From Chloroflexota bacterium (GTDB lineage Bacteria; Chloroflexota; Anaerolineae; Promineifilales; Promineifilaceae): DNA of 61,652 nucleotides. The notes beneath the pieces are model-generated. The model had not been told where the DNA came from. It made no database searches and saw only the letters and a list, made by a program, of their open reading frames with translations. Of this stretch, positions 39,986 through 55,560 are shown one piece after another; the first letter of the stretch is position 1; each line of letters opens with the position of its first letter. A program made the translations under genes and the position numbers. The DNA lies in contig JAKEFB010000095.1 in the NCBI GenBank assembly GCA_022616275.1, positions 1 to 61,652 of the forward strand, read 5' to 3'.

Positions 39986-40966
39986 TTAGAAAATCTCCCG
40001 CTCGCGCATCATCTGGAACATCTCCTGGGCGACCGGCTTAAAACGCTCCAGCGGCCAGTGGGCAAAGTCTACCTGCTCCTGCACCCCTTCTCGCTTCAAA
40101 ATCCGGTCAACGTCTACCACTGAAAAGTCGAGCTGGCGCGACAGGTCGTAGAGGGCCAGGTTGAATTCTCTGCGCCGCACCATATTGGAGCTACCGACAA
40201 ACTGAAAATTATGCGTTAAGTCACCTGGCTCGATGCCCAGGACGTTAAAGACGAGAATATAGGCGCCGGTGTGTTCGCGAACCAGTTGAATAATCCGGGT
40301 GAAGTTAGCCATAGACTCTTCGGCGCTGAGCCGGCCCACCTTCTCGAAATTTTTATTAAACCACATCACCGACAACATATCATTCAGAACCCGGTCCATG
40401 GACTGGTTCAGCCACCAGCCGCCGGGATCAACCAGAAAGCCGTGCTCGCGGTGGCGGTAAAGGGTGCGGGCAAAATCCGGTCCAATAGACAGGACGACCA
40501 CCGTCTTGGGAAATTCCTCCAGGCCATGAATGCCTGGAACGGTAAAAGTTTCGTGGAACAACACCGGCCGGAAATAGCCCGGCTTAAGCCGTAGCTTTTC
40601 CAGCGCAAGATTGAAGGACTCTTGTGGAATTTCTTCCAGGGATTGCAGGAGCAGGCTGGAATGGGAGCTGGAGGCGCCTATGCCGGACTTATAGATACAG
40701 CAGGTGCCATTTAACACCGGCTCGATAAACGGCTCGCAGGCAAAGGCGGCCGGAACGTCGCAGCCACCGCGCAGGTAAATGCCAATGCGCCTGTTATTGC
40801 GCCGGCCCGACCAGAAGGTGACGTAATTGCGTCCTTGCTGCCTTTTCTGAAAAGCAGCCCTGACGTTTTGGTACTGCCGCCGTAGAAACCGCTCCAGGAT
40901 CGGATTGGCGCCGGCGATAGTCCGCCCCATTTGCAGCCCCTTTTGCCATATACCGCTACTTTCCAT
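39986..40966 (-). CDS. SGNH-like protein of unknown function
   Basis: I do not know the family by name. The protein looks like an alpha/beta hydrolase-type SGNH relative: 'RIGIYLRGGCDVPAAFACEP' where block I would be, 'TVVVLSIGPDFARTLYRHRE', 'YILVFNVLGIEPGDLTHNFQ', 'SVVDVDRILKREG' and, near the C-terminus, Asp-x-x-His in 'DFAHWPLERFKPVAQEM'. It shares the middle part (GFLVDPGGWW versus GYLLYPPPGW; N-L-A-L-x-[ED]-L-S-R-Q) with the next gene upstream, so the two are paralogs. 326 residues, no signal peptide. Position between the halopyrrole genes and the exporter suggests acyl transfer or hydrolysis on the modified glycan; this is inference. Confidence 0.5.
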   Translation of the reverse strand: MESSGIWQKGLQMGRTIAGANPILERFLRRQYQNVRAAFQKRQQGRNYVTFWSGRRNNRRIGIYLRGGCDVPAAFACEPFIEPVLNGTCCIYKSGIGASSSHSSLLLQSLEEIPQESFNLALEKLRLKPGYFRPVLFHETFTVPGIHGLEEFPKTVVVLSIGPDFARTLYRHREHGFLVDPGGWWLNQSMDRVLNDMLSVMWFNKNFEKVGRLSAEESMANFTRIIQLVREHTGAYILVFNVLGIEPGDLTHNFQFVGSSNMVRRREFNLALYDLSRQLDFSVVDVDRILKREGVQEQVDFAHWPLERFKPVAQEMFQMMREREIF

Positions 40967-40987
40967 AGGTGTTTTCCTTACTACATT

Positions 40988-41053
40988 CTGACGACAGCCG
41001 ACTGACGACAGCCGACAGGAGAGTCTATTGAGTCGTCCGTCGTCCGTCGTCCA
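40988..41053. repeat. 14-bp and 7-bp tandem arrays in inverted arrangement
   Basis: Two adjoining 14-bp units CTGACGACAGCCGA (40988-41001, 41002-41015) are followed after 18 bases by CGTCCGT twice plus CGTCC (41034-41052). GACGAC and GTCGTC cores are reverse complements, so the halves can pair. The element fills the gap between the paralogous genes at 39986 and 41059. Confidence 0.85.
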
Positions 41054-41058
41054 ACTTC

Positions 41059-42303
41059 CTAAATGGACCCTTCCAACGAATTGGCCACGACCCGGAAAGA
41101 GGGAGCCGCGGCAACGGCCTGCTCGTCCAACTCGGCCGGCTCAGCCTCTTTGGCGCTCAAGACCGCCAGTAAATCCTCAACAGTGCAATACGCTTCCTCG
41201 GCCACGTATTTCTTGCGTAGAAATCCCTCGTTGGCGGAGACCACCCGCACCAACCAGGCCCAGTCGCGGGTATTCGTCTCGGCCGCCTGGAGTTTTTCTG
41301 GCTGGCCGGCGTTCAGGCGCTTCAGGCGCTTGAACTCTTCTACTCTAAGGTCGAATAAATTATCACCGATGCTCACCCATTCCCCCTCCTGTTTGTGCCA
41401 CCTGATAATCGAACCACCTTGAAACTGCCGTTCCAACTGGGGCAATACCAATTTCCAAAGCAAGGCTTGTTGTTCAAAAAAGCCGCTGTCTTCCACAATG
41501 CGCAGAAATTCGCGGCCGATGGCCTGGTACGCTTCCGGGGAGTATTCAAACACCCGCCGGACGTGAGCCCGGCCGCCCAGCTCGGCGAGAAGGCGATCTA
41601 CGTCAACCAGGGAGATACCCTCTTGCCGCGAAAGCTCGATCAAGGCTAGGTTGAACCGGTGGGCGCGCAGCGCCAGCGTATCGGCCACCTGGTAATAGTT
41701 GTGGCTGGTATCGTCTGGATCGAATGAAGCGCAACCATAAACGATCACCTGGGCTTTCAATTCATCCTTCAAGTAACGCACCAGGCGAGTAAAGCTCTGC
41801 CGGAACTCCGCTACGGTAATGTGGCCCCGTGGCGTGAACTGCTCCTGGAACCAGCGCCGCTGTGCTGGCGACCAGCGTTGCTCCCAGCCGGGCGGGGGAT
41901 AAAGCAGGTAGCCGGCCTGGCGGTGCTGCCAGAGTTCGTGGGCTATTTCGGGTTGGAGGGAGAGGGCAACCACGTCCACTGGCCCCTCCAGGAGACGGCT
42001 TTGAAACTGGGCGGCGATAAAGTCATCGTCAAGCCCCTGCTGGCGCAGCTCATCAGGTAAAGAGACGCCCTCCAGTTGCTGTAACAAGAGGTCGGCCCGC
42101 CAGCACGGTTCGTGAGTGATCTGGACGGCTACCGTCCCATCGTACTTCTCACCGACCCAATCCCGGAAAGCATGGTCTAATACCGTCCCGCCCTCCGGCC
42201 GGGCCAGCAGCGAAGCCACGAGGTCCTCGTTGCCCTTAAGAAAAAGGCGCACGGTTTGCCCGCCGCCAACTTTGGGCTGTGATACCCGTTCTTCTACTAT
42301 CAT
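41059..42303 (-). CDS. SGNH-like protein fused to a lipoyl/biotinyl-like domain
   Basis: Residues about 55-275 resemble the downstream paralog ('TVAVQITHEPCWRADLLLQQ', 'VIVYGCASFDPDDTSHNYY', 'NLALIELSRQEGISLVDVDR') but the C-terminal Asp-x-x-His is lost ('VFEYSPEAYQAIGREF'). Residues 296-319 (GSIIRWHKQEGEWVSIGDNL) and 354-383 (VVSANEGFLRKKYVAEEAYC, TVEDLLAVL) match the two half-repeats of a lipoyl/biotinyl hammerhead fold, separated by an insertion and without the usual modified Lys in the turn. 414 residues, ATG start, 7-bp repeat array just upstream. Function unknown. Confidence 0.5.
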   Translation of the reverse strand: MIVEERVSQPKVGGGQTVRLFLKGNEDLVASLLARPEGGTVLDHAFRDWVGEKYDGTVAVQITHEPCWRADLLLQQLEGVSLPDELRQQGLDDDFIAAQFQSRLLEGPVDVVALSLQPEIAHELWQHRQAGYLLYPPPGWEQRWSPAQRRWFQEQFTPRGHITVAEFRQSFTRLVRYLKDELKAQVIVYGCASFDPDDTSHNYYQVADTLALRAHRFNLALIELSRQEGISLVDVDRLLAELGGRAHVRRVFEYSPEAYQAIGREFLRIVEDSGFFEQQALLWKLVLPQLERQFQGGSIIRWHKQEGEWVSIGDNLFDLRVEEFKRLKRLNAGQPEKLQAAETNTRDWAWLVRVVSANEGFLRKKYVAEEAYCTVEDLLAVLSAKEAEPAELDEQAVAAAPSFRVVANSLEGSI

Positions 42304-42350: not shown

Positions 42351-43436
42351 TTATCCAAACACATAACGATAACCCACTCTCGTGACTGGCCACTTGACGG
42401 TCAGCGACATCAACAGCAGCGGCGCGCCCAGCCCGACGACGAATAATATCCCCTGGTACAGGAACGGTTGTCCCAGAATCCAGGGCGCCTTGTTGTAAAT
42501 GATCGAAGAAGCGACGTACATGGCCGGGCTGTTAGCCAGGTAAATGCCCAGCGACTTGATACCTAATTCGGTCAACTGGCTGCTATAAGGTAATCTGGCT
42601 TTGTCAAAGGCGATGAAGGTGAGCAGCACAGCCAGCGAGAAAAACTCCCGGGCCAAACCGGTGAAGTTTGGGCCGAGCCAGACGCCCGGCGTCGCCAGGC
42701 GGTTGACCAACGCATATTCGACTACGCTCAACAGGCCAAACAGAATCATCGCCGCCAACAGCAGCCAGCGAAAACGCAGCAGCCACGGTTTGAACTGGGC
42801 CAGGTGCAGACTAAAGACCATACCAAAGACAAACCAGAAGAGACGGCCGGGAAAGAACCAGATTGGTGTGGCCCGCAGAATCAGTTGCCGGCCGGGCAAG
42901 GCAACGTCCAGAATGGCCAGGTATTGTACGGCTTGCAAGACCAGGTGCAGCAGGAGGGTGCTAACGAGCAACAGCTTCCACCGTTTCTTGGCCAGGGGAA
43001 CGAGAAGCGGCGACAGCAAATAAAATTGAATAATCAGTGGGATGTAGTAATAGGCCCGTAGCGCTTCCCCTATCGAGGCCGGCGGCCGCATGAGCAGCGC
43101 GAAGTGAATAACCGTCCAGATGAAGCAAGGGACCAGCAACACCTTGATCCGGCTGGCCAGGGCCTCCCTGTTCAGTCGCGACTGCTGGCCGGTGGCCAGG
43201 AAGGCGATGAAAAAGCCCGAAACAAAAATGAAGGCCGGAATTGCGAAGCCGGACAGTTGCCGCACGGCCAGCATGATGGTGTAGGTAAGCGAGCCCAACT
43301 GGTCGTAATTAGGCGTCTCAACCGGCCGGTAGCGGTCGGTCCACAGGAACATGGCCTGAAAGCCGTAAACGACGGCGTGAAAAACCGGCAGGAAAAAGGC
43401 CGCCAGGCCATTCAGCAATAACAGTCGCCGGGCCAT
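42351..43436 (-). CDS. acyltransferase family 3 integral membrane protein
   Basis: About ten membrane helices in 361 residues, with the family hallmarks: a conserved His at the end of the first helix (FLPVFHAVVYGF), 'IPAFIFVSGFFIAFLATG', a long basic cytoplasmic loop with 'RIKVLLVPCFIWTVIHF', and 'QFYLLSPLLVPLAKKRW'. Members (OafA, NolL, Oac) esterify sugars at the membrane, usually with acetate but in some antibiotics with larger acyl groups. It lies 45 bases after a free-standing carrier protein gene, which suggests that it, or a partner, uses a carrier-bound acyl group. ATG at 43436. Confidence 0.85.
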   Translation of the reverse strand: MARRLLLLNGLAAFFLPVFHAVVYGFQAMFLWTDRYRPVETPNYDQLGSLTYTIMLAVRQLSGFAIPAFIFVSGFFIAFLATGQQSRLNREALASRIKVLLVPCFIWTVIHFALLMRPPASIGEALRAYYYIPLIIQFYLLSPLLVPLAKKRWKLLLVSTLLLHLVLQAVQYLAILDVALPGRQLILRATPIWFFPGRLFWFVFGMVFSLHLAQFKPWLLRFRWLLLAAMILFGLLSVVEYALVNRLATPGVWLGPNFTGLAREFFSLAVLLTFIAFDKARLPYSSQLTELGIKSLGIYLANSPAMYVASSIIYNKAPWILGQPFLYQGILFVVGLGAPLLLMSLTVKWPVTRVGYRYVFG

Positions 43437-43481: not shown

Positions 43482-43730
43482 TCAGGCTGCGGAACGCTGC
43501 TCGACCAGCCGCTTGATGGCCTCAATCGAACAGAAATTTTCCAGGACCACATCTTCCGGCTGTATCTGGGCCCCCAACCGCTGTTCAAGGTAATTGATCA
43601 GCATGAGAATGCCCAACGAGTCAATCACGCCGGCCTCGATCAGGTTCTGGCCATTCAATTCAAGCCCGGGTTTGTCCTGTAGAAACTCTTGAGTAATAAA
43701 CTCTTTAATTAATTGTTCGATATTGTTCAT
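43482..43730 (-). CDS. free-standing acyl/peptidyl carrier protein (carrier 1)
   Basis: 82 residues, acidic four-helix carrier. The phosphopantetheine attachment site is Ser38 in 'GVIDSLGILMLINYLEQ'. Start ATG follows AGGAG. It lies between a flavin halogenase gene and the membrane acyltransferase gene, which fits a role as the second carrier that hands the finished acyl group to a sugar transferase, as CloN1 does in clorobiocin assembly; that role is inference. No ketosynthase or other fatty-acid genes are nearby, so a housekeeping ACP is unlikely. Confidence 0.85.
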   Translation of the reverse strand: MNNIEQLIKEFITQEFLQDKPGLELNGQNLIEAGVIDSLGILMLINYLEQRLGAQIQPEDVVLENFCSIEAIKRLVEQRSAA

Positions 43731-43754
43731 GAGATATTCTCCTAATATTGCTTA

Positions 43755-45080
43755 TTAATCATACTCCACATCAGTAGCCACCCAGATTGGCGCGCGCTCC
43801 GGCCGGTAACGAGAGCCAATTGGTACTGAATACTCGCCAGGCTTGTCATAGCCGCGTTCCCGCTTCAGCAACCTGCGCATCTCCAACAAGGCTTCAGAGG
43901 GCTGCCGCTCGTGCAACCGGCCGGCAAAAATGTCCAGCATCAGCTCCCTATAACGTTGGTGCATAAAGAGGGCAAAGGCTAATGGATATTCCCAGAAGGT
44001 ATCTATCATGTCCTCCAGCACGTCAATCCCCTTCTCCAGGAACAGCTCGTGCTCGGTAAAGGGGTTGGCCGCATCGCGGTTGGCCCCATTCAAGTAGCCC
44101 TTAATGACCTGTGCCGCCCGTTCTCCTTCCCACATGCTCAGGTACAGGCCAAACGAGAAAATGGGGTCAATAAAGCGGTGGGCATCACCCAGACACATAA
44201 AGCCTTTGCCAGTAAAGCCCTGGACCTGGTAGGAGTAGTTGGGGATCACCCGCACATCTTCCACCAGCTCAATTTCCGCCAGCCGCCGCTGGCACTCCGG
44301 GTTGATTTCCTGCAGTTCGCGCAGCAGGAAATCGCGCTTACTTTCTTTCTTGTCCAGGAAGTAAGCCGAGGGGATAACCACACCCACGCTGACCGTCTCG
44401 TCGTCCAACGGAATGAACCAGGACCAGTGGTACTTCTGCTGGTAGAAGATCAAGGTGTCGCCGTACTTAGGACCTTCATCACGTATGGCCCCTACTACCT
44501 GGGAGAAGATGGCAATCTGCTTGTCATAACTGCCAAGGTACTTCGGGCCGGTGACGCCGGCGTTGGCCAGGAAGGTATTCTGGCCGGAGCAGTCGAGCAC
44601 TACATCGGCCGCTACCTCCACCATGCTGCCATCGGCCAGCCGGACTTCCACGCCCCGCACAGCCCCGTCGTCGCCGACCAGCGGCCGGGTAGCCCGGCCG
44701 GGCAGCAGCGTTGCACCTCGCGCCACCGCTTCATCCAGCATCATTTTGTCGAAGTCCTGGCGGTGCACCTGCCAGGTAGATTGAGGATAGAGTTCCCAGT
44801 TATTATCACGAGCCATCACCGGCACAAACCAGGAGGTCTTGCCACTAGGGCCATAAACCGTCAGGCCGCGCTTAACCGGGTGCCGGCGGCTGAGCATCTC
44901 GGCTTCCAGGCCCAGCCGGCGGAGAACCCCCCCGGCCTCGCCGGACATAGATTCGCCAATGTGGTAGCGCGGAAACTCTTCCTTCTCGACAATGATGGAT
45001 TGGATGCCCTCATGCTTGAGGAACATCGCCGCCGTCGCGCCGCCAGGCCCTCCGCCCACAATCACCACATCTGTATTCAT
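43755..45080 (-). CDS. flavin-dependent halogenase 1
   Basis: Uses FADH2, O2 and halide to make a lysine-bound halogenating species that attacks an aromatic ring. FAD site 'VVIVGGGPGGATAAMFLKHE' (5-24); Lys70 in 'HPVKRGLTVYG' at the place of the chloramine lysine; halogenase signature W-x-W-x-I-P at 219-224 (WSWFIP); F-x-x-P-x-x-S-x-G at 303-311 (FIDPIFSFG). These separate it from ordinary FAD oxidoreductases. Strong SD GGGAGGAAG at 45082-45090. It is most similar to the halogenase at 50861-52183. 18 bases after the adenylation gene. Carrier-bound pyrrole is the likely substrate. Confidence 0.85.
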   Translation of the reverse strand: MNTDVVIVGGGPGGATAAMFLKHEGIQSIIVEKEEFPRYHIGESMSGEAGGVLRRLGLEAEMLSRRHPVKRGLTVYGPSGKTSWFVPVMARDNNWELYPQSTWQVHRQDFDKMMLDEAVARGATLLPGRATRPLVGDDGAVRGVEVRLADGSMVEVAADVVLDCSGQNTFLANAGVTGPKYLGSYDKQIAIFSQVVGAIRDEGPKYGDTLIFYQQKYHWSWFIPLDDETVSVGVVIPSAYFLDKKESKRDFLLRELQEINPECQRRLAEIELVEDVRVIPNYSYQVQGFTGKGFMCLGDAHRFIDPIFSFGLYLSMWEGERAAQVIKGYLNGANRDAANPFTEHELFLEKGIDVLEDMIDTFWEYPLAFALFMHQRYRELMLDIFAGRLHERQPSEALLEMRRLLKRERGYDKPGEYSVPIGSRYRPERAPIWVATDVEYD

Positions 45081-45098
45081 ACTTCCTCCCTATTGAAC

Positions 45099-46694
45099 TC
45101 AGCTTGCGCTCTGAGCCAATAGCGGCCGGTCAATCTTCCCGGTCGAAGTTTTCGGCAGTTCGCTGCGAAATTCCACACTTTCCGGCACCATGTAGCGTGG
45201 CAACTGGCGACCGCAGTGAACGATGATATCTTTTTCCGTCAAATCATGGCCGTTACTGGCCACGACAAAGGCCCGCAGCCGGCTACCGATCAATTCGTCC
45301 GGCACGGCAATCACGGCCGCTTCCTTCACGCCGCTGTGGCTATAGAGCGCGGCCTCGATCTCGCCTAATTCAATCCGGTAGCCGCGACTTTTGACCATGT
45401 GATCGCGCCGGCCGATGTACAGCCAGTTCGTCCTATCCTCGTCCAGGGTGACAATGTCTCCGGTGCGGTAAGCGACTTCATCAAAATGCTGCTGGAAGGA
45501 ATTGTGGACAAAGTTCCTGGCCGTCTTCTCCGGGTCGCCCCAGTAACCCTGGGCCACGCACGAGCCGCGCACCCATAACTCCCCCTCCTGCCCCGGCCGG
45601 GTGACCCGCTGCTCCTGGTCGTCCACGGCAAAGACTTCCATGTTGGCGCAGGCCACGCCGATGGGCACCGGCTGTGTTCGCTCCGGGGCCAGGTCGTGGG
45701 GTTGGACCTTGTAATAGGTGCAGACGTTCGTCTCCGTCGGGCCATAAAGGTTGTAGTAATCGGCCTGGGGAACGGCGGCCACCAACCGGCGCAGGTATTT
45801 GATGGGAAAGACCTCGCCGGCGAACAGGACCAGGCGCAGGAAAGAGAAGTCGTGCGTTTCCAGCCTGCCGTATTGGACCATCAGCGACAGGATGGAGGGT
45901 ACCAGGTACGTAACCGTAATGCGTTCATCCTGCAACAGTTGCGCCAGTTGCACTGGAATGACCGAAAGTTTCTCCGGCACCAGCACCACCGTCCCGCCGG
46001 CCTGGATGGTTACGTACATGTCAAAGGTGGACAGGTCAAAATGCAGCGGGGCGTGGCCGGTCACCCGGTCGGCGGAGGAAATTTGGAACGTTTCCGCGCA
46101 CCAATTGATGAAAGTAAAGATGGTGCGGTGGGAAATCATCACCCCTTTGGGCTCGCCGGTCGAGCCGGAGGTGTACAAAATGTAAGCCAGGTCAGTCTCA
46201 ATCGTTGGGCCTGGCGGCAACGGCCGGTCGTCCTGCGCACACACCTCCTCCCAGGTGATCAGGCGGGCCAGCGCCGGCGCAGCCGCCTCTGCTGCGCCCG
46301 CGCCAGCCAGCACGGCCGTGGCCAGAGGCGTGCCGGCTTCAAAGAAATCTTGTAGAGAGGCCAGTTTCTCGCTGGACGTTAACAGCACCTGCACGTCGCA
46401 GTTGCGGGTGATGTAGGCCAGCCGGGCCGTCGGCGCGCTGGGGTCCAGCGGCACGTACACGCCGCCGGCCTTGAGAATGCCAAAAACAGAGATGATCGCA
46501 GCCAGCGACTTATGAACGTAGATACCTACCCGGTCGCCCCGCTGCACCCCGGCCGACCACAAAGCGCGGGCGACCTGGTTGGTCAGTCGGTCCAACTGGC
46601 CATAGGTTAACCCCTCGCCCTGGAAGCGGGCCGCCTCCGCCTCCGGCCGCCGGGCCGCGCTCTCAGTCAACAACTGCTGCAACAGGTAAGCCAT
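45099..46694 (-). CDS. stand-alone adenylation enzyme, predicted L-prolyl-carrier ligase
   Basis: Activates an amino acid with ATP and loads it on a carrier protein. A3 'YILYTSGSTGEPKGVM' (171-186), A5 'NLYGPTETNV', A7 'YRTGDIV', A8 'GRRDHMVKSRGYRIELGEIE', A10 Lys520 in 'TSTGKIDR'. Reading the ten specificity positions against GrsA gives D220 L221 F224 S267 L290 A292 L316 V324 C325 K520. The code I remember for the L-proline enzymes PltF and RedM is DLLYLALVCK; 8 of 10 agree. 531 residues, no fused carrier or condensation domain. It is next to the dehydrogenase that would oxidise prolyl-carrier to pyrrolyl-carrier. Confidence 0.88.
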   Translation of the reverse strand: MAYLLQQLLTESAARRPEAEAARFQGEGLTYGQLDRLTNQVARALWSAGVQRGDRVGIYVHKSLAAIISVFGILKAGGVYVPLDPSAPTARLAYITRNCDVQVLLTSSEKLASLQDFFEAGTPLATAVLAGAGAAEAAAPALARLITWEEVCAQDDRPLPPGPTIETDLAYILYTSGSTGEPKGVMISHRTIFTFINWCAETFQISSADRVTGHAPLHFDLSTFDMYVTIQAGGTVVLVPEKLSVIPVQLAQLLQDERITVTYLVPSILSLMVQYGRLETHDFSFLRLVLFAGEVFPIKYLRRLVAAVPQADYYNLYGPTETNVCTYYKVQPHDLAPERTQPVPIGVACANMEVFAVDDQEQRVTRPGQEGELWVRGSCVAQGYWGDPEKTARNFVHNSFQQHFDEVAYRTGDIVTLDEDRTNWLYIGRRDHMVKSRGYRIELGEIEAALYSHSGVKEAAVIAVPDELIGSRLRAFVVASNGHDLTEKDIIVHCGRQLPRYMVPESVEFRSELPKTSTGKIDRPLLAQSAS

Positions 46695-46718
46695 CTTTTA
46701 CACTCGCTCTTAGGATGC

Positions 46719-47864
46719 TTACAGCCCCAGTAGCCGGGCAATAATCGTCCGCTGGATATCCGAGGTACCCGAGTAAATTGTGCCGCCAATGGCATCACGC
46801 AGGTCGCGCTCAATCTCCGATTCAGACATATAGCCGTAGCCGCCATGCACGCTGATGCTGTCCAGGCCGGATTGAACGAAAGATTCGCTCAGATAGAGCT
46901 TGGCAATGGCCGCCTCCATCGTCGCCGGCTCATTCATCTTTTTCAGCCAGGCGACTTTATAAAGGATCAGCCGGGTCGTTTCCAGGCGCACTTTCATGTC
47001 GGCAATCCGGTTGGCGACCGACTGGAATTTGCCGATAGGCTGGCCAAATTGCCGGCGCTCGCGGGCGTAGCGCACGCACAATTCCACCTGGCGCTCCATT
47101 GCCCCCACGTGGCTGGCCAGGATGCAACTTCGCTCCCACTCCATCGAGCTATTGAAGATACTCGCGCCGGCCCCTTCGCGGCCGAGGCGGTTTTCCTCGG
47201 GGATAAAACAGTCCTGGAAGACCAACTCGCTCAATGGCGCTGTGCGCAGGCCCATCTTTTCCATGTCGCCGCCCACGCTGAAGCCAGGCGTGCCCTTGTC
47301 CACCAGAAAAGCGGTAATTCCCCAACGGCCCTTGCTGGGGTCTACGGTGGCAAAAACCAGGGCCATGTCGGCCACCGGGCCGTTGGTCACAAACATCTTG
47401 CTGCCGTTCAGTACGTAGCCGCCGTCTACCCCCTCGGCGCGGGTGCGCAGGCTGTAAGCGTCCGAGCCGGAGTCCGGTTCAGTCATGCCGTGGGCGCCGA
47501 TCAGCTCGCCGCTACACAGGCCGGGCAGGTACTTCTCTTTTTGCGCGGCCGTGCCAAAGGTGAGGATGGGCAGTTGGACGCTCCACATCTGGGCGTTGAG
47601 GGCGAAGATCAGGCCGTTGTCGCGGCAGCCATAACCCAGGCCCTCCATCACCAACATCGTCGTCAGGATGTCGGCCGCGCTGCCACCGTACTCCTCGGGC
47701 ATGGGCAGCCCCTGCAGGCCAAAACGGGCACACTTCAGCCAGTTTTGCCGCGAAAAGTCGCTGTGCCGGTCTCGCTCCAGCAAGCCGCTATTCAGCTCTT
47801 TCTGAGCAAACTCGATGGCTGCCTGTTTGAAGGCCAGTTGCTCTTCGCTCCAGGAAAAATCCAT
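46719..47864 (-). CDS. acyl-CoA-dehydrogenase-like oxidase, predicted prolyl-carrier dehydrogenase
   Basis: FAD enzyme of the acyl-CoA dehydrogenase fold, 381 residues. 'LIGAHGMTEPDSGSDAYSLR' and 'YVLNGSKMFVTNGP' form the flavin site; 'RERRQFGQPIGKFQSVANRI' and 'DSISVHGGYGYMSESEIERD' are further family signatures. At the medium-chain catalytic position the sequence is 'YSGTSDIQ' (Ser, not Glu), while Glu244 in 'MEWERSC' takes the isovaleryl-CoA dehydrogenase place; the same Glu244 is reported for the prolyl-ACP oxidase AnaB. PltE/RedW/CloN3 do this four-electron oxidation of prolyl to pyrrolyl on a carrier. Only two bases separate it from the carrier gene upstream. Confidence 0.88.
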   Translation of the reverse strand: MDFSWSEEQLAFKQAAIEFAQKELNSGLLERDRHSDFSRQNWLKCARFGLQGLPMPEEYGGSAADILTTMLVMEGLGYGCRDNGLIFALNAQMWSVQLPILTFGTAAQKEKYLPGLCSGELIGAHGMTEPDSGSDAYSLRTRAEGVDGGYVLNGSKMFVTNGPVADMALVFATVDPSKGRWGITAFLVDKGTPGFSVGGDMEKMGLRTAPLSELVFQDCFIPEENRLGREGAGASIFNSSMEWERSCILASHVGAMERQVELCVRYARERRQFGQPIGKFQSVANRIADMKVRLETTRLILYKVAWLKKMNEPATMEAAIAKLYLSESFVQSGLDSISVHGGYGYMSESEIERDLRDAIGGTIYSGTSDIQRTIIARLLGL

Positions 47865-47866
47865 TC

Positions 47867-48112
47867 TTAGTTTAATTTGCTGGCAATCAGCGCCTTCAAA
47901 CTTTGCAAGCTGTCGAAGTTGTCGGGCACAACCTCATGGTCTTCAATGCTCAAGCCGAAACGCTCCTCAATAAAGAGAATCAGCCGGATCAGGCTCAACG
48001 AGTCTATAATACCGCTGTCAATCAGCGACGTCTCGGGAGCTATCTTCATCTGGCGGTTGCCGATCAGCAACTCGTCCACGATAAACCGTTCCAGCGTAGT
48101 CTCAATATTCAT
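47867..48112 (-). CDS. free-standing peptidyl carrier protein (carrier 2)
   Basis: 81 residues; attachment Ser38 in 'SGIIDSLSLIRLILFIEE'. SD AGGAGGAT (48117-48124). The gene is 13 bases after a halogenase gene and 2 bases before the dehydrogenase gene, so it is the best candidate for the PltL/CloN5-type carrier that holds proline, pyrrole and halopyrrole. It differs clearly from carrier 1 outside the Ser helix, so the two are not recent duplicates. Confidence 0.87.
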   Translation of the reverse strand: MNIETTLERFIVDELLIGNRQMKIAPETSLIDSGIIDSLSLIRLILFIEERFGLSIEDHEVVPDNFDSLQSLKALIASKLN

Positions 48113-48125
48113 AATTATCCTCCTA

Positions 48126-49478
48126 CTATTTGGGGAACATATCGGCCATGTTAGCGTGACACGAGGTTGCCTGGAGAGTGGGACGTGTGAGAACTAACTG
48201 TTTATACAGCTCATAAACACGCGGCTGCCGCAAAAGGTCTATTACCTTACCATAGTCGTCGTAGCGGTCGAAAAAATCCCCTGCCAGGAGATAGTGTCCC
48301 ACAGCCATTGCATTTTGATGCTCTTGATAAACTAACTCCGAAGCCGATTCCATTTGGGCAAAATTGATGACGTTGGGGGTATAGAAAAATTGAATGAGCT
48401 TAAAGACCATTTTGTAAGCCCCTTCGATTTTTCGATAAGCTGCCTCCAGTGGTTCTAACGCGCCACGTTCCAGATCCAGTTTCTGGTGGATGCCTTCAGA
48501 AACCAGCCAGGCGCCATTCATGGCCAGGTAAATACCACTGGAAAAAATAGGGTCTATGAAGGTGGCGGCGTCCCCGACGATGGCAAAATTCTCGCCGTAT
48601 TTGGTTTCGCTATAGTAGGAATAATCACCTTCGATTACCAGTGGTTGAATCATTCGCGCTTCGGCCAGCAGCCGGCCGGCAAAGGGCGAATAAGACAACT
48701 CCTGTTCGTAAAGCGCCTGTTTCCAATCCTCGACGCCCTCGGCCTCAAATTTTGCCCGCTGGGAACGGATGTATTCGTTGTTTAAGACGACGCCGACCGT
48801 CAGGCGATCTAGCCCCAGGGGGAAGATCCACAGCCAGCCCTTTTTCTCACCACCCAGGTAAATGATCAGAGACAACCCCTCCTCAAGGCCCCCGATCAAC
48901 TCAGCGCCGCTATAGTGGCTCCACAAAGCTGTGCGATCCAGCTCGGCAAACTTTTTTCGGATGCCTCTCGAAGAGGCCAGGAAAGCGTTGCGGCCGCTGC
49001 CATCTAAGACGAACCGCGCCAGGTGACTCTGGCGCTTGCCGTCTGGACCAACGGCCCGTACCTCGACCAGGCCATCGGGTCTTTCCAGGTTAACGGCGTC
49101 TACCCGGGTCTCTTCGATGGCCACGGCGCCAAATCGCCGGGCGTTGTTGAGCAACATTTGGTCAAACTCGCTGCGAAGGACCTGGAAGGAAAGATAGCTG
49201 GGATCGTGAATGACGTGATTGAAGCACCAGGTGGTCGAGGCGACTCCCTCCTTATCAATGAAGCGCACGCCTGGTTTGCGGACAAAGCTGGCCTTCATCT
49301 GGTCCAGGAGTCCTAACTGATCAAAGAGCTTGTAACAGAAGGGCAGTAATGACTCGCCCACGTGATCGCGGGGAAATTTCTCCTTTTCCAATAGCAGCAC
49401 CTGGCGGCCTTTCATCGCCAGAAAGGCGGCGGCCGTAGAACCGGCCGGCCCCCCACCAATAATAATGACATCATTCAC
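48126..49478 (-). CDS. flavin-dependent halogenase-like enzyme 2 (variant motif)
   Basis: 'VIIIGGGPAGSTAAAFLAMK' (4-23) binds FAD; Lys68 in 'ASFVRKPGVRF' is at the halogenase lysine; the W-x-W-x-I-P motif reads WLWIFP (215-220), with Phe for Ile; 'FIDPIFSSG' is at 307-315. 450 residues. A GTG start follows GGAGAAGAATT. Because of the Phe it could be a halogenase with altered specificity or a related oxygenase. It is more like halogenase 3 than 1 or 4. Confidence 0.75.
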   Translation of the reverse strand: MNDVIIIGGGPAGSTAAAFLAMKGRQVLLLEKEKFPRDHVGESLLPFCYKLFDQLGLLDQMKASFVRKPGVRFIDKEGVASTTWCFNHVIHDPSYLSFQVLRSEFDQMLLNNARRFGAVAIEETRVDAVNLERPDGLVEVRAVGPDGKRQSHLARFVLDGSGRNAFLASSRGIRKKFAELDRTALWSHYSGAELIGGLEEGLSLIIYLGGEKKGWLWIFPLGLDRLTVGVVLNNEYIRSQRAKFEAEGVEDWKQALYEQELSYSPFAGRLLAEARMIQPLVIEGDYSYYSETKYGENFAIVGDAATFIDPIFSSGIYLAMNGAWLVSEGIHQKLDLERGALEPLEAAYRKIEGAYKMVFKLIQFFYTPNVINFAQMESASELVYQEHQNAMAVGHYLLAGDFFDRYDDYGKVIDLLRQPRVYELYKQLVLTRPTLQATSCHANMADMFPK

Positions 49479-49549
49479 AATTCTTCTCCAATTTGCGCTC
49501 AGGAAAAATGGACAGGAGTTTGCACTCCTCCAGGCTGCTCGAAGGCAGG

Positions 49550-50818
49550 CTAATCTATCGGGATATCCGACAACTGTCCTTTGAATACGTGATTGTCGCT
49601 TGCTTCCACGGTGCGGATATATTTTCTCATTTCGTCCAGCACAGGCACTTCGCTGCGGTCAAAGACCTCGCCCTGCAACAGCCGCAGGACCTCCAGCCGG
49701 TGTTGCTTGGAGCTGATGAAATAGGTGAAGAGCGGGAGCAGCTTATAATAGAGGCGGATAAATTCGTACCAGATTTCGGTCCCGGCGCGCAGCTTGTGCT
49801 CGTATGGCTTTAAAGCGGCTTCGCTGAAGTCGCCGGTCTCAAAAGCGTACTGGATACGCTCAAAGGAGTACTTGGCGCTGTAGAGGGCCACGCTGACGCC
49901 CGAGGAAAAGATAGGGTCCACAAAACGGGCTGCATCGCCGATCATCACAAAACCATTGCCGGCGAAGGTATCCATTTTGTAACTGTAGTCTCCTTCGAGC
50001 TTAAAGTCGTTGATGCGCCGGGCATTTTGCATGGCGGCGGCCAGGTCAGGATTAGAGTTGATAAATTTGAAGAAATAGTCGGCCGGCTCCAGGTGCGCCT
50101 GCCGAAATACTTCGCGTTCAGCCACAATGCCCATCGAAGTAATCTCTTCCGTAATCGGGATTTGCCAGGCCCAACCGCGCTGGACGGGCAGGAAGTAGAC
50201 GTGGATGAAGTTGGCTGAAGGGCTATTGCCTTTGGCCACGTTTTCAAACCAGGCGTGAACGGCAAACTGGTCGAAGATGGGATCATTCTTCTTCACTTTC
50301 AACTGGCGGCCGAGCAACGTCTGGCGGCCGCTGGCGTCTACGACCAGGCGGGCAGGCACATCTATTTCCTGGTCGGCTATCCGGATACGGACGCCGCAGG
50401 CATAGTCGTTGTCGTCAAATAAGACCCTGGTTACGGTGACGCCCTGGTAGACCTTCGTGCCCAGGCTCTCGGCGTGCTTGAGCATTAACAAGTCAAGCTT
50501 GCTGCGGTCTACGTGATAGGTGTAATCCTGGGTAATACCTGCCTGGGGGAATTCGTTGAAGCAGATAGCTGCTTCCCCTTTGGCCGTCATAGGATGCCAG
50601 GATGCGCCATATTTGCGGATGAAGCCTTCTCTTTCCATGACAGGCAAGAACCCGATTTCCTCGAATACCCGAACGGAGGACATCACCATAGATTCGCCAA
50701 CGTGCGACCGGGGATGGTTGGTTGCCTCAAAAATCGTGTTTTTGAAGCCGGCTTTAGAGAGGTAGCTGCCTAACGTTGATCCGGCCGGGCCGCCACCAAT
50801 GATAATCACATCATTCAT
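49550..50818 (-). CDS. flavin-dependent halogenase 3
   Basis: 'VIIIGGGPAGSTLGSYLSKA' (4-23); Lys69 in 'EGFIRKYGASW', the GFxxKxG lysine of phenol/pyrrole halogenases; WAWQIP at 216-221; 'FVDPIFSSG' at 299-307. 422 residues. The GESM box after the first helix is retained. Preceded by a 42-base gap from halogenase 4 and a modest SD (AAGGA). Confidence 0.85.
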   Translation of the reverse strand: MNDVIIIGGGPAGSTLGSYLSKAGFKNTIFEATNHPRSHVGESMVMSSVRVFEEIGFLPVMEREGFIRKYGASWHPMTAKGEAAICFNEFPQAGITQDYTYHVDRSKLDLLMLKHAESLGTKVYQGVTVTRVLFDDNDYACGVRIRIADQEIDVPARLVVDASGRQTLLGRQLKVKKNDPIFDQFAVHAWFENVAKGNSPSANFIHVYFLPVQRGWAWQIPITEEITSMGIVAEREVFRQAHLEPADYFFKFINSNPDLAAAMQNARRINDFKLEGDYSYKMDTFAGNGFVMIGDAARFVDPIFSSGVSVALYSAKYSFERIQYAFETGDFSEAALKPYEHKLRAGTEIWYEFIRLYYKLLPLFTYFISSKQHRLEVLRLLQGEVFDRSEVPVLDEMRKYIRTVEASDNHVFKGQLSDIPID

Positions 50819-50860
50819 CTTTGCAGTTCGTTCCTTATGGTTCGGTCGTTTTGTGTCGGC

Positions 50861-52183
50861 CTAAATGGGCGGCCGTTCCTCCCACAGTGGCGCGCGCTCT
50901 GGATGGTAGCGCGACCCGATGGGCAAGGAATAAATGTCTTCCGAATCGTAGGTTCGCTCGCGCTTTAGCAGCCGGCGGAAACCTTCGACCGCCTCTGAAG
51001 GCTGGTTTTCGTAAATGCGGCCGGCAAAAACGTCAACCATCAGTTCGCGATGGCGGGCATGGACCAGGTAGGCAAAAGTAAAGGGGTGCTCCCAGAAACC
51101 ATCCAGGGTATCTTCCAGAACGTCTATCCCTTTCTCGCACAAGACCTGGTGCTCGGCAAAGGGGTTATCGGCATCGCGGTTAGCGCCCTCCAGGTAAGCT
51201 CGCACTCGAGGCGCCGCGTATTGAGCCTCCTTCATCGTCACGTACAGGCCAAAGGAGAAAATCGGATCAATGAAACGATGGGCATCGCCGATGCAGATAA
51301 AGCCCTTGCCGCAAAAACGCTTGACCTGGAAGGAATAGTTGGGAATAGAGCGGGTCTCTTCGATCAACTCAAGTTCAGGGATACGCCGCTTTAGTTCCGA
51401 GTGGAGTTCGTACAATTCTCGTTTCAGGAACTCGGCCTTGCTCTCTTTCTGCTCCAGGAAATAAGCGGCCGGGCTGACCACGCCCACGCTAACCACTTCG
51501 TCGTCCAGGGGAATCCACCAGGCCCAGTGGTACTTCTTTTGGTAAAAAATCAGCGTGTTGTCCGGTTGCGTATCCCGCGTCTCGCCGTCGTCGCGGATGC
51601 CGTTGGCGATCTGCGAGAAGATGGCAATCTGCTTGTCGTAGTGGCCCAGGTACTTGGGGCCGGTCACGCCGGCCTGGGCCAGAAAGGTTTTCTGGCCAGA
51701 ACAGTCGAGCAACACTTCCGATTCAATATCCACCAGGCCGCCATCGGCCATTTTGACCTGTACGCCGCGCACCGCCCCCTCGTCGTCCAGCAACGGCCGG
51801 GTAGCCTGGCCATGAATCAGAGTTGCCCCACGAGCCACCGCCTCCTCCAACATCATCCTGTCAAAATCGCTGCGCCGCACCTGCCAGGTAGTCTGGTCCA
51901 TGAGGTTGTAGCTGGCGTCGCGGGCCATCACCGGAACGAACCAGGAATGCTGGCCGTAGACTTTTACGCCGTGCTTGATTGGGTGCCGGCGCTTGAGCAT
52001 CTCGTCGCCCAGCCCTAATTGGCGGACAACGCCGCCACACTCGCCGGTCATGGACTCGCCAATGTGGTAGCGGGGAAAGGTTTCTTTCTCAATAATAACC
52101 GGCTTGATACCTTCTTGGATCAAGAACATAGCGCTGGCCGCTCCCCCAGGACCGCCGCCAACAATAGCTACGTCTGTCTTCAT
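50861..52183 (-). CDS. flavin-dependent halogenase 4
   Basis: Paralog of halogenase 1 along the whole length ('FPRYHIGESM', 'GPKYLG.YDKQIAIFSQ' in both). 'VAIVGGGPGGAASAMFLIQE' (5-24); Lys70 in 'HPIKHGVKVYG'; WAWWIP at 220-225; 'FIDPIFSFG' at 304-312. 440 residues. First gene of the halopyrrole group in transcription order and preceded by a perfect Shine-Dalgarno, AAGGAGGTGA, that overlaps the stop codon of the sulfotransferase gene, so its translation should be strong and coupled. Confidence 0.85.
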   Translation of the reverse strand: MKTDVAIVGGGPGGAASAMFLIQEGIKPVIIEKETFPRYHIGESMTGECGGVVRQLGLGDEMLKRRHPIKHGVKVYGQHSWFVPVMARDASYNLMDQTTWQVRRSDFDRMMLEEAVARGATLIHGQATRPLLDDEGAVRGVQVKMADGGLVDIESEVLLDCSGQKTFLAQAGVTGPKYLGHYDKQIAIFSQIANGIRDDGETRDTQPDNTLIFYQKKYHWAWWIPLDDEVVSVGVVSPAAYFLEQKESKAEFLKRELYELHSELKRRIPELELIEETRSIPNYSFQVKRFCGKGFICIGDAHRFIDPIFSFGLYVTMKEAQYAAPRVRAYLEGANRDADNPFAEHQVLCEKGIDVLEDTLDGFWEHPFTFAYLVHARHRELMVDVFAGRIYENQPSEAVEGFRRLLKRERTYDSEDIYSLPIGSRYHPERAPLWEERPPI

Positions 52184-52187: not shown

Positions 52188-52197
52188 TCACCTCCTT
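52188..52197 (-). promoter_or_regulatory. perfect Shine-Dalgarno of halogenase 4
   Basis: On the minus strand AAGGAGGTGA, complementary over its full length to the 16S 3' end, lies 4 bases before the ATG at 52183 and overlaps the TAA (52196-52198) of the upstream sulfotransferase gene. Most genes of the locus have much weaker sites; carrier 2 (AGGAGGAT) and halogenase 1 (GGGAGGAAG) are also strong. Confidence 0.8.
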
Positions 52198-53047
52198 AAG
52201 TCCAGTCAGGATTTTCTTCGTAACCCAGTTTCAAAAGGAGTGGGTTATACTGTTCCTTGAAATAGCGAATGTGCTCAACCTTGAAGTGATTGCGCCAATC
52301 CCCCGGTGAACCTTTTCGATAGTGGCTGGCCTGGTCTTCCTGGCCCGGCCGGCGCCCACCACTTTTCCTGTCGAATTCATTTTGCCAGATAATTCCCAAC
52401 AGCCTTTCCGCCGGCAAGCGTTCCGGCAGGCCTGCCAGCGAAATCCGGCCCCGGCTGAGGCGCTGCAGGCGCCTGGCCAAAGCGTAACTGAGCCATCGCC
52501 TGGCGGTAAAACGCTGCTCGTCAAGGAGGCCTAGAAAGTCGAAGATTTTTAAAAATTGCCGGTAAGGATCGGCCGTCAGCGCCTCCATTTTGACCTGCAA
52601 GAAATTGGGGTCCTCGTACTTCCATGAATCCATTTCATTCATATACTTTTCGACAAACTGCATATCCAGCAGTAATCCTTCGTCTGTGGATAGGCTTTGC
52701 AATCTCTTCCGATGTTCGACAAGCTCCGGCCAGTTTTTCGTCTCGTGGCTGTGCAGGTGGGAAAAGTATGCCGAGACACAAATATCGCGAGGGTCCCTGA
52801 CAACATGAAAGCCGCGAACGGCTTTCAGTTGCTTGACACATTCGTAATCCGCGTTGGTATACGCTAAAAAATCTATCTTACCGTGCGCCACGAAAGCTGG
52901 CAAGTTGCCATTAAACATATCCGGGTGCCAGACGACGGCGCGGCGCAGCCCCAACTCGCGGCAAACGGGCCGGAGAATGCCATTCACCCAGCGCGTGGCG
53001 CACTTGTGGTGGCCCATGAAAGCTAACAAGGGGCGCTCTTTGCTCAT
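52196..53047 (-). CDS. sulfotransferase family protein
   Basis: 'LLAFMGHHKCATRWVNGIL' near the N-terminus is a Lys-Cys variant of the 5'-phosphosulfate loop; 'GFHVVRDPRDICVSAYFSHL' is a textbook 3'-phosphate strand and helix; 'SHYRKGSPGDWRNHF' is the RKGxxGDW element. 283 residues from the ATG at 53047 (8 bases after GGAGACG); the frame is open to 53203 but that part is translated from a dispersed repeat and the previous gene. Located immediately before the halogenase genes. Confidence 0.82.
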   Translation of the reverse strand: MSKERPLLAFMGHHKCATRWVNGILRPVCRELGLRRAVVWHPDMFNGNLPAFVAHGKIDFLAYTNADYECVKQLKAVRGFHVVRDPRDICVSAYFSHLHSHETKNWPELVEHRKRLQSLSTDEGLLLDMQFVEKYMNEMDSWKYEDPNFLQVKMEALTADPYRQFLKIFDFLGLLDEQRFTARRWLSYALARRLQRLSRGRISLAGLPERLPAERLLGIIWQNEFDRKSGGRRPGQEDQASHYRKGSPGDWRNHFKVEHIRYFKEQYNPLLLKLGYEENPDWT

Positions 53048-53058
53048 ATAATTCGTCT

Positions 53059-53101
53059 CCGTCGCTGATCCAGGCTTCGCCCTGGACACGCGTCCGTCGT
53101 C
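53059..53101. repeat. 43-bp dispersed repeat, copy 1
   Basis: Matches 61192-61234 with 4 mismatches over 43 bases. It contains a small hairpin (TCCAGG...CCTGGA) and ends CGCGTCCGTCGTC, related to the 7-bp arrays. It lies between the SGNH gene stop (53106) and the sulfotransferase start (53047), 11 bases before the ATG. Confidence 0.85.
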
Positions 53102-53105
53102 TACC

Positions 53106-54233
53106 CTAGTGAAACGGCCACAACGCCATAATCTGCTCGGCCGCCAGGCGATGGCCGGCCGCGTTCGGGTGCATCCATACGTCGGCAAAGAGGGCATTCT
53201 CATACCCTTCGCAGGCGCCGGCCCCGGCTTCGGCGCCTGCGTCCGCTTCGGCGCACGCTTGCTGGAAAACAGGCAACATATCTACCATGGTAACGCCCTC
53301 GGCCGCCGCCCGCTGGCTAAAGACACGCTGGGGTACGTCGGGATGAGCCGCGCTGTTAACCTGGAAGGCCGTGGGAAAGACGACGACGAGGAAGGGAATG
53401 TTCCGCGCTTCGCTGGCGGCGGCCATCTCGGCCACATAGCTCCAGACCTGGTCGTAGACGGGATTCTCCTCGCGCAAGGGATAGTAGCGTCTGGCCTCTT
53501 GGGGTGGGTTCAACTCCGGGATCGCCTCAGGTCCAACGCGCCGGGCCAGCAGAAAACGGAGCTGGGTCGTCAAAAAGGGCCAGCCGTAAGTATTATCTCG
53601 TAGCCAGTTGAAAAGGGCATTCTCCTCGCTAATAACGGGGGCAATGGTTATGTCGTTGACGACGGTAACGCTCAGCACAATGGCATCTGGCTGGTAGTCG
53701 AAGCCCTGGTCTAACAAGAAGTTGCGGGTCGCCTCAAGCGTCCAGCCAGGCACGCCGGCGTTGACCACTTCCACCTGTTGCCCTTCAACGCGGCCGGTGA
53801 GCAGTTGCTCCAACTGTTTGCCGTAGGTCTCCTCCTGTTGTACCCGCCAGCCAAAGGTAACCGAGTCGCCAACGGTCAGCAGGCGGTAAACGCCGGCCGG
53901 CTTGGGCCAAGCCACCTCCTCGGTCCGCAGCCCACGCGAGTTAATATGCACCGGGATGTTCTCCCATAAGTACCCCTGATGGGGACGGAACAGATAGTAC
54001 GGCCGTTCTGGTTCCCCATGAAGCTCTAGCTCCAGGCGGCGCGAAGCGACCAACGTCCAGCCCAGCTCGCCCTGGGCCGTCTTTCTTTCCCAGATGTAGC
54101 CAGCCAATTCTACGCCACCTAGTAAGACGACGAGCGTGATGAAGGAAATCAACACGCCGCCGAGAATGCCCTGCCTGGATTTGGCAGGCTGCCTGGTTTC
54201 GGTTGTAGGTGATGGCGATGAGATCGTGCTCAT
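53106..54233 (-). CDS. membrane-anchored SGNH/GDSL hydrolase
   Basis: One N-terminal membrane helix (GGVLISFITLVVLLGGVELA), then 'INSRGLRTEEVAWPKPAG' and 'RLLTVGDSVTFGWRVQQEET' (block I), 'VNAGVPGWTLEATRNFLLDQ' (block II), 'DAIVLSVTVVNDI' (block III, Asn-Asp) and 'DVWMHPNAAGHRLAAEQI' (block V). 375 residues, ATG at 54233. Exposed SGNH enzymes of this layout add or remove acyl groups on exopolysaccharide. Adjacent to a second, similar gene. Confidence 0.8.
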   Translation of the reverse strand: MSTISSPSPTTETRQPAKSRQGILGGVLISFITLVVLLGGVELAGYIWERKTAQGELGWTLVASRRLELELHGEPERPYYLFRPHQGYLWENIPVHINSRGLRTEEVAWPKPAGVYRLLTVGDSVTFGWRVQQEETYGKQLEQLLTGRVEGQQVEVVNAGVPGWTLEATRNFLLDQGFDYQPDAIVLSVTVVNDITIAPVISEENALFNWLRDNTYGWPFLTTQLRFLLARRVGPEAIPELNPPQEARRYYPLREENPVYDQVWSYVAEMAAASEARNIPFLVVVFPTAFQVNSAAHPDVPQRVFSQRAAAEGVTMVDMLPVFQQACAEADAGAEAGAGACEGYENALFADVWMHPNAAGHRLAAEQIMALWPFH

Positions 54234-54250
54234 ATACCTGGCATCAGATT

Positions 54251-54271
54251 TAAAAAGTCTTGGAGACTTTT
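54251..54271 (-). terminator. weak hairpin with U5 between two SGNH genes
   Basis: Arms aaaagtct (54253-54260) and agactttt (54264-54271) with a 3-base loop; on the minus strand the descending arm runs into U5. Only three G-C pairs, so it could at most attenuate transcription between the two SGNH genes. Confidence 0.4.
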
Positions 54272-54279
54272 CAACTCTT

Positions 54280-55464
54280 TCAAGGAGCGGGCGGCAGCTC
54301 GCTGACGAAGTGGTACAGTTCTTCACCGGCCAGGCGATGGCCAAGCTCGTTCATGTGAAAATCTTTCTGGTAGTAAAGAGCTGGGCCCCCCTGGAGCATG
54401 TGAGCGCGAAACGGTTCCAGCAAATCCAGGAAGGGTACCCCTTCGGCCGTCAGAAAGGCGGCCAGTTCGTCGTTGGGCCGCTGGCAATACCAGCTTTCCC
54501 CCTCGGCCGGGGGAATCACCTGAGGCGCGGCCGGAATGACCAGGACGACAAAACGGGCCCCACTGGCCTCGACCTCCAGGCGCATTTGCCTGAGCAAGAC
54601 CCTGGTAATAGCCCAGGCTTCTTCAATTTTCGGCGCGTACTGCTCAACGCAAATGTCCAGACGCCGCCGGGGCGCCGGGGCGCTTGCCTCTTCAGGCGCC
54701 GGTTCGGCCCGCCGGCCGCCGGCCAGCTCAACCAGGGGGCGCAGCGCGGCCGGCACGTCCCGGCGCAGGTTCAGCGTTTGGGCAATGAAACGAGGCAACT
54801 GAAAGTAACGTTTGAAGAAGGAACTCACGCGCACAGACCAGTTGTCTGCCCCCTCGACCGGATAATTCTTGAGAACCAGGGCGCCGGTGTCATCCAGCTC
54901 AAAATAGGGCTTGTGCCGGTTGCCCCCCGTGCTTACTTCTAACTCATAGCTGTTGTTGTAAATGTCATTGGCCAGGTAGACGCCCAGGATGACAATGTCT
55001 GGCTGGTATTTGCTGGCCTCCTGCCGAAAGAAAAGGAGTTCATTATCGGTACCATAGCCGTTGACGGCGGCGTTGATAACCATCCAGTCGTTGTTTCCAC
55101 CGGCGTTATTTAACTGTTGTTCCAGGATTTTGCTGAAGGTGTCCTCTAGCGGCACTTGCATACCGGCCGTCAACGAATCACCCAGAAAGAGAATCCGTTG
55201 TTGGCCTAGCTCTTTCTCGTAGGCCGTCTCCTGGTCCCGCAGCCCCCGGCTGTTTATCTCGACATAGACATTGCATTCGCCGTAACAGGATTCCCACCCG
55301 GCGGCATTAGGGATATTCCGCCAGCCATAGAGTGGGTGCGGCTCCCAAAAGCCACCGGTTCCCAGATGTAGAACCCGGGCTATCACTTCTAGAATTAGCA
55401 ACGCCATCACCAGGCCGGTAACTACCAGCGCCGCTCTCTTCAACAGACCAACAACCATTTTCAT
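54280..55464 (-). CDS. membrane-anchored SGNH/GDSL hydrolase
   Basis: N-terminal helix (AALVVTGLVMALLILEVIA), 'INSRGLRDQETAYEKELGQQ', 'RILFLGDSLTAGMQVPLEDT' (block I), 'VINAAVNGYGTDNELLFF' (block II), 'DIVILGVYLANDIYNN' (block III) and 'DFHMNELGHRLAGEEL' (block V). 394 residues; the ATG at 55464 is preferred over a TTG one codon earlier. Same domain order as the downstream neighbour, so probably an old duplication. Confidence 0.8.
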   Translation of the reverse strand: MKMVVGLLKRAALVVTGLVMALLILEVIARVLHLGTGGFWEPHPLYGWRNIPNAAGWESCYGECNVYVEINSRGLRDQETAYEKELGQQRILFLGDSLTAGMQVPLEDTFSKILEQQLNNAGGNNDWMVINAAVNGYGTDNELLFFRQEASKYQPDIVILGVYLANDIYNNSYELEVSTGGNRHKPYFELDDTGALVLKNYPVEGADNWSVRVSSFFKRYFQLPRFIAQTLNLRRDVPAALRPLVELAGGRRAEPAPEEASAPAPRRRLDICVEQYAPKIEEAWAITRVLLRQMRLEVEASGARFVVLVIPAAPQVIPPAEGESWYCQRPNDELAAFLTAEGVPFLDLLEPFRAHMLQGGPALYYQKDFHMNELGHRLAGEELYHFVSELPPAP

Positions 55465-55560
55465 CAATAAAGACGGTTATCCTCCCGGAGGTTCAAGCGA
55501 TGGTCGCCGGGCGGCCTGGCGCAATCGCCAACCTGTGGGAGGTTGCGACATACTGATATT

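Follow-up and report, generated by a model that had tools for sequence, protein, structure and literature searches.

The window analysed here, the whole 61,652-nucleotide contig JAKEFB010000095.1 of a Chloroflexota bacterium (family Promineifilaceae; 8.53-Mb draft genome, 98.25% complete), carries on its minus strand genes for a predicted halopyrrole pathway inside a surface-polysaccharide locus. The genes follow one another in the order sulfotransferase, flavin halogenases HalA, HalB and HalC, free carrier protein CP1, dehydrogenase, stand-alone adenylation (A) enzyme, halogenase HalD, carrier CP2, membrane acyltransferase AT3, two proteins of no Pfam family, Wzm and Wzt; from 52183 down to 37890 the largest intergenic gap is 92 nt or less by open reading frame (ORF) coordinates. 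An original prediction, made from the letters alone, had described 43482-52183 as a complete-looking halopyrrole assembly pathway. The A enzyme, the oxidase, the two carriers and the four halogenases that it named all lie where it placed them, on the minus strand, and such a feature set is far beyond chance. Its boundaries hold for these genes; they leave out the key neighbour directly downstream, the AT3 gene (42351-43436), through which the gene unit extends beyond 43482 into Wzm/Wzt. With AT3 the arrangement gains a mechanism, which the original prediction missed. The genes on which the argument turns are:

50861..52183, minus strand: HalA, Bmp2-like flavin halogenase (5bva match and triad)
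49550..50818, minus strand: HalB, PltA/Mpy16/ChlB4-like flavin halogenase, predicted to dihalogenate (structure matches and triad)
48126..49478, minus strand: HalC, variant flavin halogenase (8zop, 3e1t (CndH) and CmlS matches)
47867..48112, minus strand: CP1, free carrier protein (PF00550, 28.0 bits; IDSL)
46719..47864, minus strand: prolyl-carrier dehydrogenase of the PigA/RedW/PltE type (4irn; NCBIfam PigA; E244)
45099..46694, minus strand: stand-alone A enzyme, predicted to use L-proline (PF00501, PF13193, code DLFSLALVCK, PltF match)
43755..45080, minus strand: HalD, Bmp2-like flavin halogenase (5bva match and triad)
43482..43730, minus strand: CP2, free carrier protein adjoining AT3 (PF00550, 21.6 bits; IDSL)
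42351..43436, minus strand: AT3 membrane acyltransferase without the canonical arginines, predicted (halo)pyrroloyl transferase (PF01757, motifs, tree)
37890..39910, minus strand: Wzm/Wzt polysaccharide ATP-binding cassette exporter, Wzt with a PF14524 carbohydrate-binding end (Pfam)

The first two activities of the pathway are well matched to known proline-to-pyrrole enzymes. The A enzyme (PF00501, 314 bits; PF13193, 80 bits) has the adenylation code DLFSLALVCK; we take codes of the LALVCK type to mark proline bound for pyrrole, and no printed codes of this kind were found in the literature searched. With a profile of 19 A enzymes, the best structure with a single A domain is PltF (6o6e, 453 bits; next single-A chain, 356), near which the window's enzyme lies, so this sequence check does not go against the original prediction. 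Chain 8xjz, which is not resolved into domains, reaches 528 bits with the same profile, and linear gramicidin synthetase LgrA is rejected as nearest kin: its 633 bits come from two domains (290 + 333). Against TIGR03098, an exosortase-linked exopolysaccharide (EPS) ligase family, the enzyme scores 373 bits (cut-off 592), and TIGR01733 scores higher. The dehydrogenase has three acyl-CoA dehydrogenase domains by Pfam, and its best PDB match is the prolyl-ACP dehydrogenase 4irn (477 bits, E 3e-142; next, 364); PigA (457.5 bits, cut-off 500) and RedW (417.5, cut-off 650) lead the NCBIfam list, both below cut-off. Residue E244, presumably the catalytic base, is invariant in 21 relatives. Both free carriers read I-D-S-L at the predicted DSL serine, and against the PF00550 cut-off of 20.8 bits CP1 scores 28.0 and CP2, barely above, 21.6.

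All four halogenases match PF04820 at 74-100 bits (cut-off 21), share the Lys of a K-x-G segment, and carry the two motifs noted earlier, WxWx[IF]P (as WSWFIP, WLWIFP, WAWQIP and WAWWIP) and FxDPIFSxG (as F[IV]DPIFS[FS]G). Their top matches are all halogenases, and the possibility that these flavin adenine dinucleotide proteins are plain reductases is rejected on that ground. They differ in kind: HalA and HalD are Bmp2-like, HalB is PltA/Mpy16/ChlB4-like, and HalC has no clear kin. HalA and HalD are 66% identical to each other and find Bmp2 (5bva) at 240 and 267 bits, the next kind scoring 142 and 144; in place of the Bmp2 triad Y302/F306/A345, HalA has F/V/L and HalD F/L/L. HalB matches 7fco (394.6 bits), 5buk (394.5) and 5dbj (383) far ahead of the next structure (175), and its triad is the Mpy16-type S/V/W, which halts Bmp2 at dibromination according to PMC8407142. 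HalC matches 8zop (173 bits), 3e1t (CndH; 165) and CmlS (146). Together with 4irn, PigA/RedW and PltF, the Mpy16/PltA- and Bmp2-type halogenases support the product proposed originally, and by homology the block probably makes a halogenated pyrrole-2-carboxyl thioester. The A enzyme would load L-proline onto a free carrier and the dehydrogenase would oxidise the prolyl-S-carrier to pyrrole-2-carboxyl-S-carrier, two steps for which the homologies argue strongly; HalB would then dihalogenate the ring, with Cl or Br, and HalA and HalD may add further halogen.

If the acyl group is built on a carrier, what takes it off? The window's AT3 (PF01757, 68 bits; cut-off 31) is the sole match to its family in the genome. 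Family members are described as having an absolutely conserved R-X10-H motif (PMC9833829). The window protein has N at position H-11, in place of the Arg, and it is not alone: among 32 AT3s from 20 dehydrogenase-bearing loci, with 37 others from that taxon family as controls, none has R or K at H-11 (25 N, 5 M, 1 L, 1 S), versus 34 of the 37 controls. RXXR at transmembrane helix 3 is likewise found in 0/32 (two have RXXK) versus 29/37 (six more have RXXK). The His of R-X10-H is kept in all 32, and the first Arg of RXXR (R96) in 37 of 37 when five further AT3s of the pyrrole-locus type are included. ORFs shorter than 250 aa, including a cut copy at L123, were excluded from the motif counts and the tree. 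The controls were drawn mostly from the upper part of the match list; of nine further control stretches, six yielded no readable AT3 and three yielded one each, with R, R and G at H-11 and RXXR in every case. In a quick tree a branch with SH-aLRT 99 sets the controls to one side, and one with 83 does the same for the 37 pyrrole-locus AT3s. Searched against solved structures, the AT3 sequence found just two matches, to a potassium channel, at E about 0.3. Of the three arginines proposed to bind acyl-CoA, AT3s of the pyrrole-locus type have lost two, which would fit a carrier-bound donor.

The co-occurrence of AT3 with the pyrrole genes extends well beyond this contig. The dehydrogenase (E up to 1e-90) is found in 46 of 397 genomes of the class, 22 of them, the window's own included, at 50% identity or more, and (E up to 1e-120) in 21 of 53 genomes of the family. 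A scan of GTDB contigs retained at least 80 loci; the merged set holds 95 distinct dehydrogenase loci, contig copies being merged by the last 300 dehydrogenase residues and loci with a dehydrogenase profile score of 560 bits or less (e.g. L067), as well as the weaker loci L039-L046, being excluded. AT3 lies within 10.5 kb of the dehydrogenase in 22 of these 95 loci, and in 34/34 copies the two share a strand. At least one polysaccharide gene (glycosyltransferase, Wzm, Wzt or Wzy within 10.5 kb) is present in 16 of the 22. The association of AT3 with at least two such genes (table 13/8 and 9/65) gives a Fisher p of 1.2e-5, which is optimistic given that the species are related; equally optimistic, for the same reason, is the p of 1.1e-5 for the pyrrole-locus AT3 type, present in 12 of the 21 family genomes that have the dehydrogenase versus 1 of the 32 that do not. 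In G401, the one genome with this AT3 type and no dehydrogenase, a contig of 4.2 kb carries a fragment with the order AT3-carrier-AT3-GT2-GT4.

Two gene layouts are prominent. The Anaerolineae layout runs from glycosyltransferases through dehydrogenase, A enzyme, carrier, one to three AT3s and zero to several halogenases to GT2, GT4 and Wzy, with a nucleoside-diphosphate-sugar epimerase present where examined; outside the class it is mostly dehydrogenase, A enzyme and carrier, often with proteins the size of nonribosomal peptide synthetases (NRPS). Polysaccharide loci in several Anaerolineae families combine dehydrogenase, A enzyme, carrier and AT3, so the layout is not peculiar to one genome. 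In L115 (2842-6160), a dehydrogenase 76% identical to the window's is followed directly by Wzm and Wzt, and no A enzyme or carrier was found on that 9.2-kb contig. In L109 and L129, titled Gammaproteobacteria and Actinomycetes, the dehydrogenases are 81% and 72% identical to the window's, reflecting gene transfer or mis-binned contigs.

Within the 16 loci that combine AT3 with polysaccharide genes, the halogenases come and go. Seven (the window, L047, L113, L051, L054, L186 and L161) have one to four full halogenases, a second 'HAL' of L161 (31 bits) not being counted; no locus in the set has more than the window's four. Seven others (L095, L098, L114, L117, L120, L126 and L128) have none in the fetched stretch, L052 has a 113-aa piece of one where its contig stops, and L129, a short contig lacking both A enzyme and carrier, has an AT3 of a different type. 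With no halogenase seen in seven of the 16 loci, halogens look like an optional addition to a constant pyrrole. At L103:7059 and L150:2695, halogenase-like proteins next to the cassette lack WxWxIP and read DPIFSHG.

The module as a whole is also movable. Stretches of 12 to 40 kb from G114, G407, G405, G398, G204 and G181 show the polysaccharide locus, with Wzm, Wzt, GT4, Wzy, GT2 and the genes after them, without the module, though not all of them extend to Wzm/Wzt. The module sits just upstream of Wzm in the window and L113; in G170, G359, G341, G194, G374 and G397 its place is downstream of Wzm/Wzt, with the glycosyltransferases on one side and the GT4-Wzy end on the other. Absent from some loci and at two sites in others, it behaves as an optional polymer modification. 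In G407 the pyrrole cassette is on a separate contig, in an NRPS locus. There and in G167 (L100 and L049, respectively), the module, with halogenase and AT3, has condensation-carrier-thioesterase proteins and sulfotransferases as neighbours, an arrangement that suggests pyrroloylated peptides. AT3 accompanies the cassette even in these loci and thus tracks the pyrrole, not the sugar genes.

What, then, does the block do? On balance, the layout and the motif loss favour a pyrrole-decoration module within a surface-polysaccharide locus, in which a carrier-fed AT3 O-acylates the polymer: the carrier would plausibly present the (halo)pyrroloyl group to AT3, which would move it across the membrane and esterify a sugar hydroxyl of the polysaccharide built by the locus and exported by Wzm/Wzt. 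Several findings pull the other way. According to a review (PMC9558356), the AT3 donors shown so far are acyl-CoAs, and a bulky acyl group, instead of a carrier donor, could explain why the arginines were lost. Six AT3 loci show no polysaccharide gene within the stretch fetched, at least two of them being NRPS loci, so a polysaccharide need not be the acceptor in every case, and nine of the 21 dehydrogenase-bearing family genomes lack the pyrrole-locus AT3 type. The code DLFSLALVCK also stands beside NRPS genes in Acidobacteria and therefore carries no information on context. Among the halogenases, HalC does not group with pyrrole enzymes; the non-halogenase 3nix outscores some halogenases, never the top ones, for HalA and HalC; and HalB scores equally with Mpy16 and ChlB4, an enzyme acting on a salicyl-type substrate, so that kinship does not fix its substrate. 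The block holds no flavin reductase, two PF01613 genes lying elsewhere in the genome, and contamination of the draft genome is put at 5.5%.

Most known pathways of this kind yield small molecules, and an NRPS-size A protein lies within 10.5 kb of the dehydrogenase in 35 of the 95 loci. These facts, together with the NRPS setting of the module and AT3 in G167 and G407, would suit a block that makes a small secreted halopyrrole, like that of Bmp or pyoluteorin pathways, and merely adjoins polysaccharide genes; but in the window genes scanned Pfam detected no thioesterase, NRPS or polyketide synthase (PKS), the setting among polysaccharide genes is repeated in several families, and the module is continuous with Wzm/Wzt, and we consider this explanation unlikely. 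Rather improbable, too, is a non-polymeric acceptor, a glycoside, glycolipid or lipid-linked oligosaccharide exported by Wzm/Wzt and pyrroloylated as aminocoumarin sugars are. Clorobiocin offers a precedent, and the sequence tools used cannot separate polymer from oligomer, but the carbohydrate-binding end of Wzt and two Wzy_C-type genes suggest a polymer. AT3 acetylases are common in polysaccharide loci, and acyl-CoA is the donor shown for the family; nevertheless, an ordinary acetyl-CoA-dependent O-acetylase unrelated to the pyrrole genes would hardly have lost both arginine motifs, formed a separate branch, and co-occurred with the dehydrogenase even beside the cassette in NRPS loci, and we regard this as very improbable. 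A polymer-decorating module remains the preferred reading. A broader proposal is put forward tentatively, with its chance a little short of even: that Anaerolineae polysaccharides are esterified with pyrrole-2-carboxylate, halogenated in some lineages, by a new carrier-dependent AT3 branch that lacks the acyl-CoA-binding arginines and also serves NRPS products, a second ligase-carrier-AT3 set in the same loci delivering another acyl group; carrier-fed AT3s would then be a general route for unusual acyl groups onto the cell surface.

Several known systems come close. In clorobiocin, a second carrier takes over the pyrrole-2-carboxyl group, which an acyltransferase moves to a sugar hydroxyl (PMC11218499). 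The clorobiocin and coumermycin pathways (CloN1-CloN7) share with the window a proline A enzyme, carrier, dehydrogenase, second carrier and transfer to a sugar hydroxyl, the last predicted here; they differ in an acceptor that is a small antibiotic and in a transferase, CloN7 with CloN2, and the window's ring is predicted to be halogenated. For a soluble acyltransferase of the CloN2/CloN7 type, Pfam scans of the block found only PF01757, no direct search for CloN2 or CloN7 having been made. Like pyoluteorin (PltF/PltE/PltL/PltA) and marinopyrrole (Mpy16), the window has an A enzyme nearest PltF and a HalB nearest Mpy16/PltA/ChlB4 with an Mpy16-type triad; unlike them, it has up to four halogenases and a polysaccharide context, with no PKS or NRPS found in the genes scanned. 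Bmp2 of the Bmp1-4 tetrabromopyrrole pathway is the best solved relative of HalA and HalD, yet their triads are F/V/L and F/L/L, not Y/F/A, and Pfam finds no thioesterase family in the block.

Among AT3 O-acyltransferases of surface polysaccharides, OafA/OafB and OatA share PF01757, the His of R-X10-H and the first Arg of RXXR with the window type, which lacks the Arg of R-X10-H and RXXR and sits with a carrier-loading pathway. The DltABCD system, which D-alanylates teichoic acid, has the same outline of A enzyme, carrier, membrane acyltransferase and surface polymer; block Pfam scans identify the window's acyltransferase as AT3, not MBOAT (DltB), and the acyl group would be remade on the carrier. 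TIGR03098 ligases are also AMP-forming ligases in polysaccharide loci, but the window's A enzyme is below cut-off and a second ligase in relatives is nearer (469 bits). The locus would combine two known elements, pyrrole chemistry and surface acylation, in a new way, and its AT3 branch departs from the canonical motifs. In the literature searched, which left out most subscription journals, no described system placing a halopyrrole pathway between a polysaccharide exporter and sulfotransferase/glycosyltransferase genes was found, as claimed originally; nor was a carrier-fed AT3, or a bacterial surface polymer carrying a plain or halogenated pyrrole ester. If the interpretation is right, the AT3 family, for which the review cited above reports acyl-CoA as donor, would gain a carrier-fed branch recognisable by sequence, and with it a direct test of the role of the mid-membrane arginines.

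The remaining features of the window belong to the same polysaccharide setting:

39986..42303, minus strand: two related proteins of no Pfam family in the AT3-Wzm interval, 31% identical to each other
11317..37865, minus strand: glycosyltransferases, sulfotransferases, a sulfatase and an O-antigen-ligase/polymerase-like gene, Wzy_C (Pfam; order conserved in relatives)
52196..61222, minus strand: sulfotransferase, two GDSL proteins, BNR protein, SIS-domain isomerase and O-antigen-ligase-like gene (Pfam; same locus)

The 39986-42303 pair has no relatives but each other among the ORFs searched. A second ligase-carrier-AT3 set occurs in the same kind of polysaccharide locus at L070, L072 (4336-11336, for example), L074, L079, L097 and L222; it comprises a TIGR03098-like ligase (469 bits), an AsnB-like amidotransferase, a NadE-like protein, a carrier and AT3. 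Ten AT3s of this second set lack RXXR, and at H-11 they have S in seven cases and R in two, one being cut.

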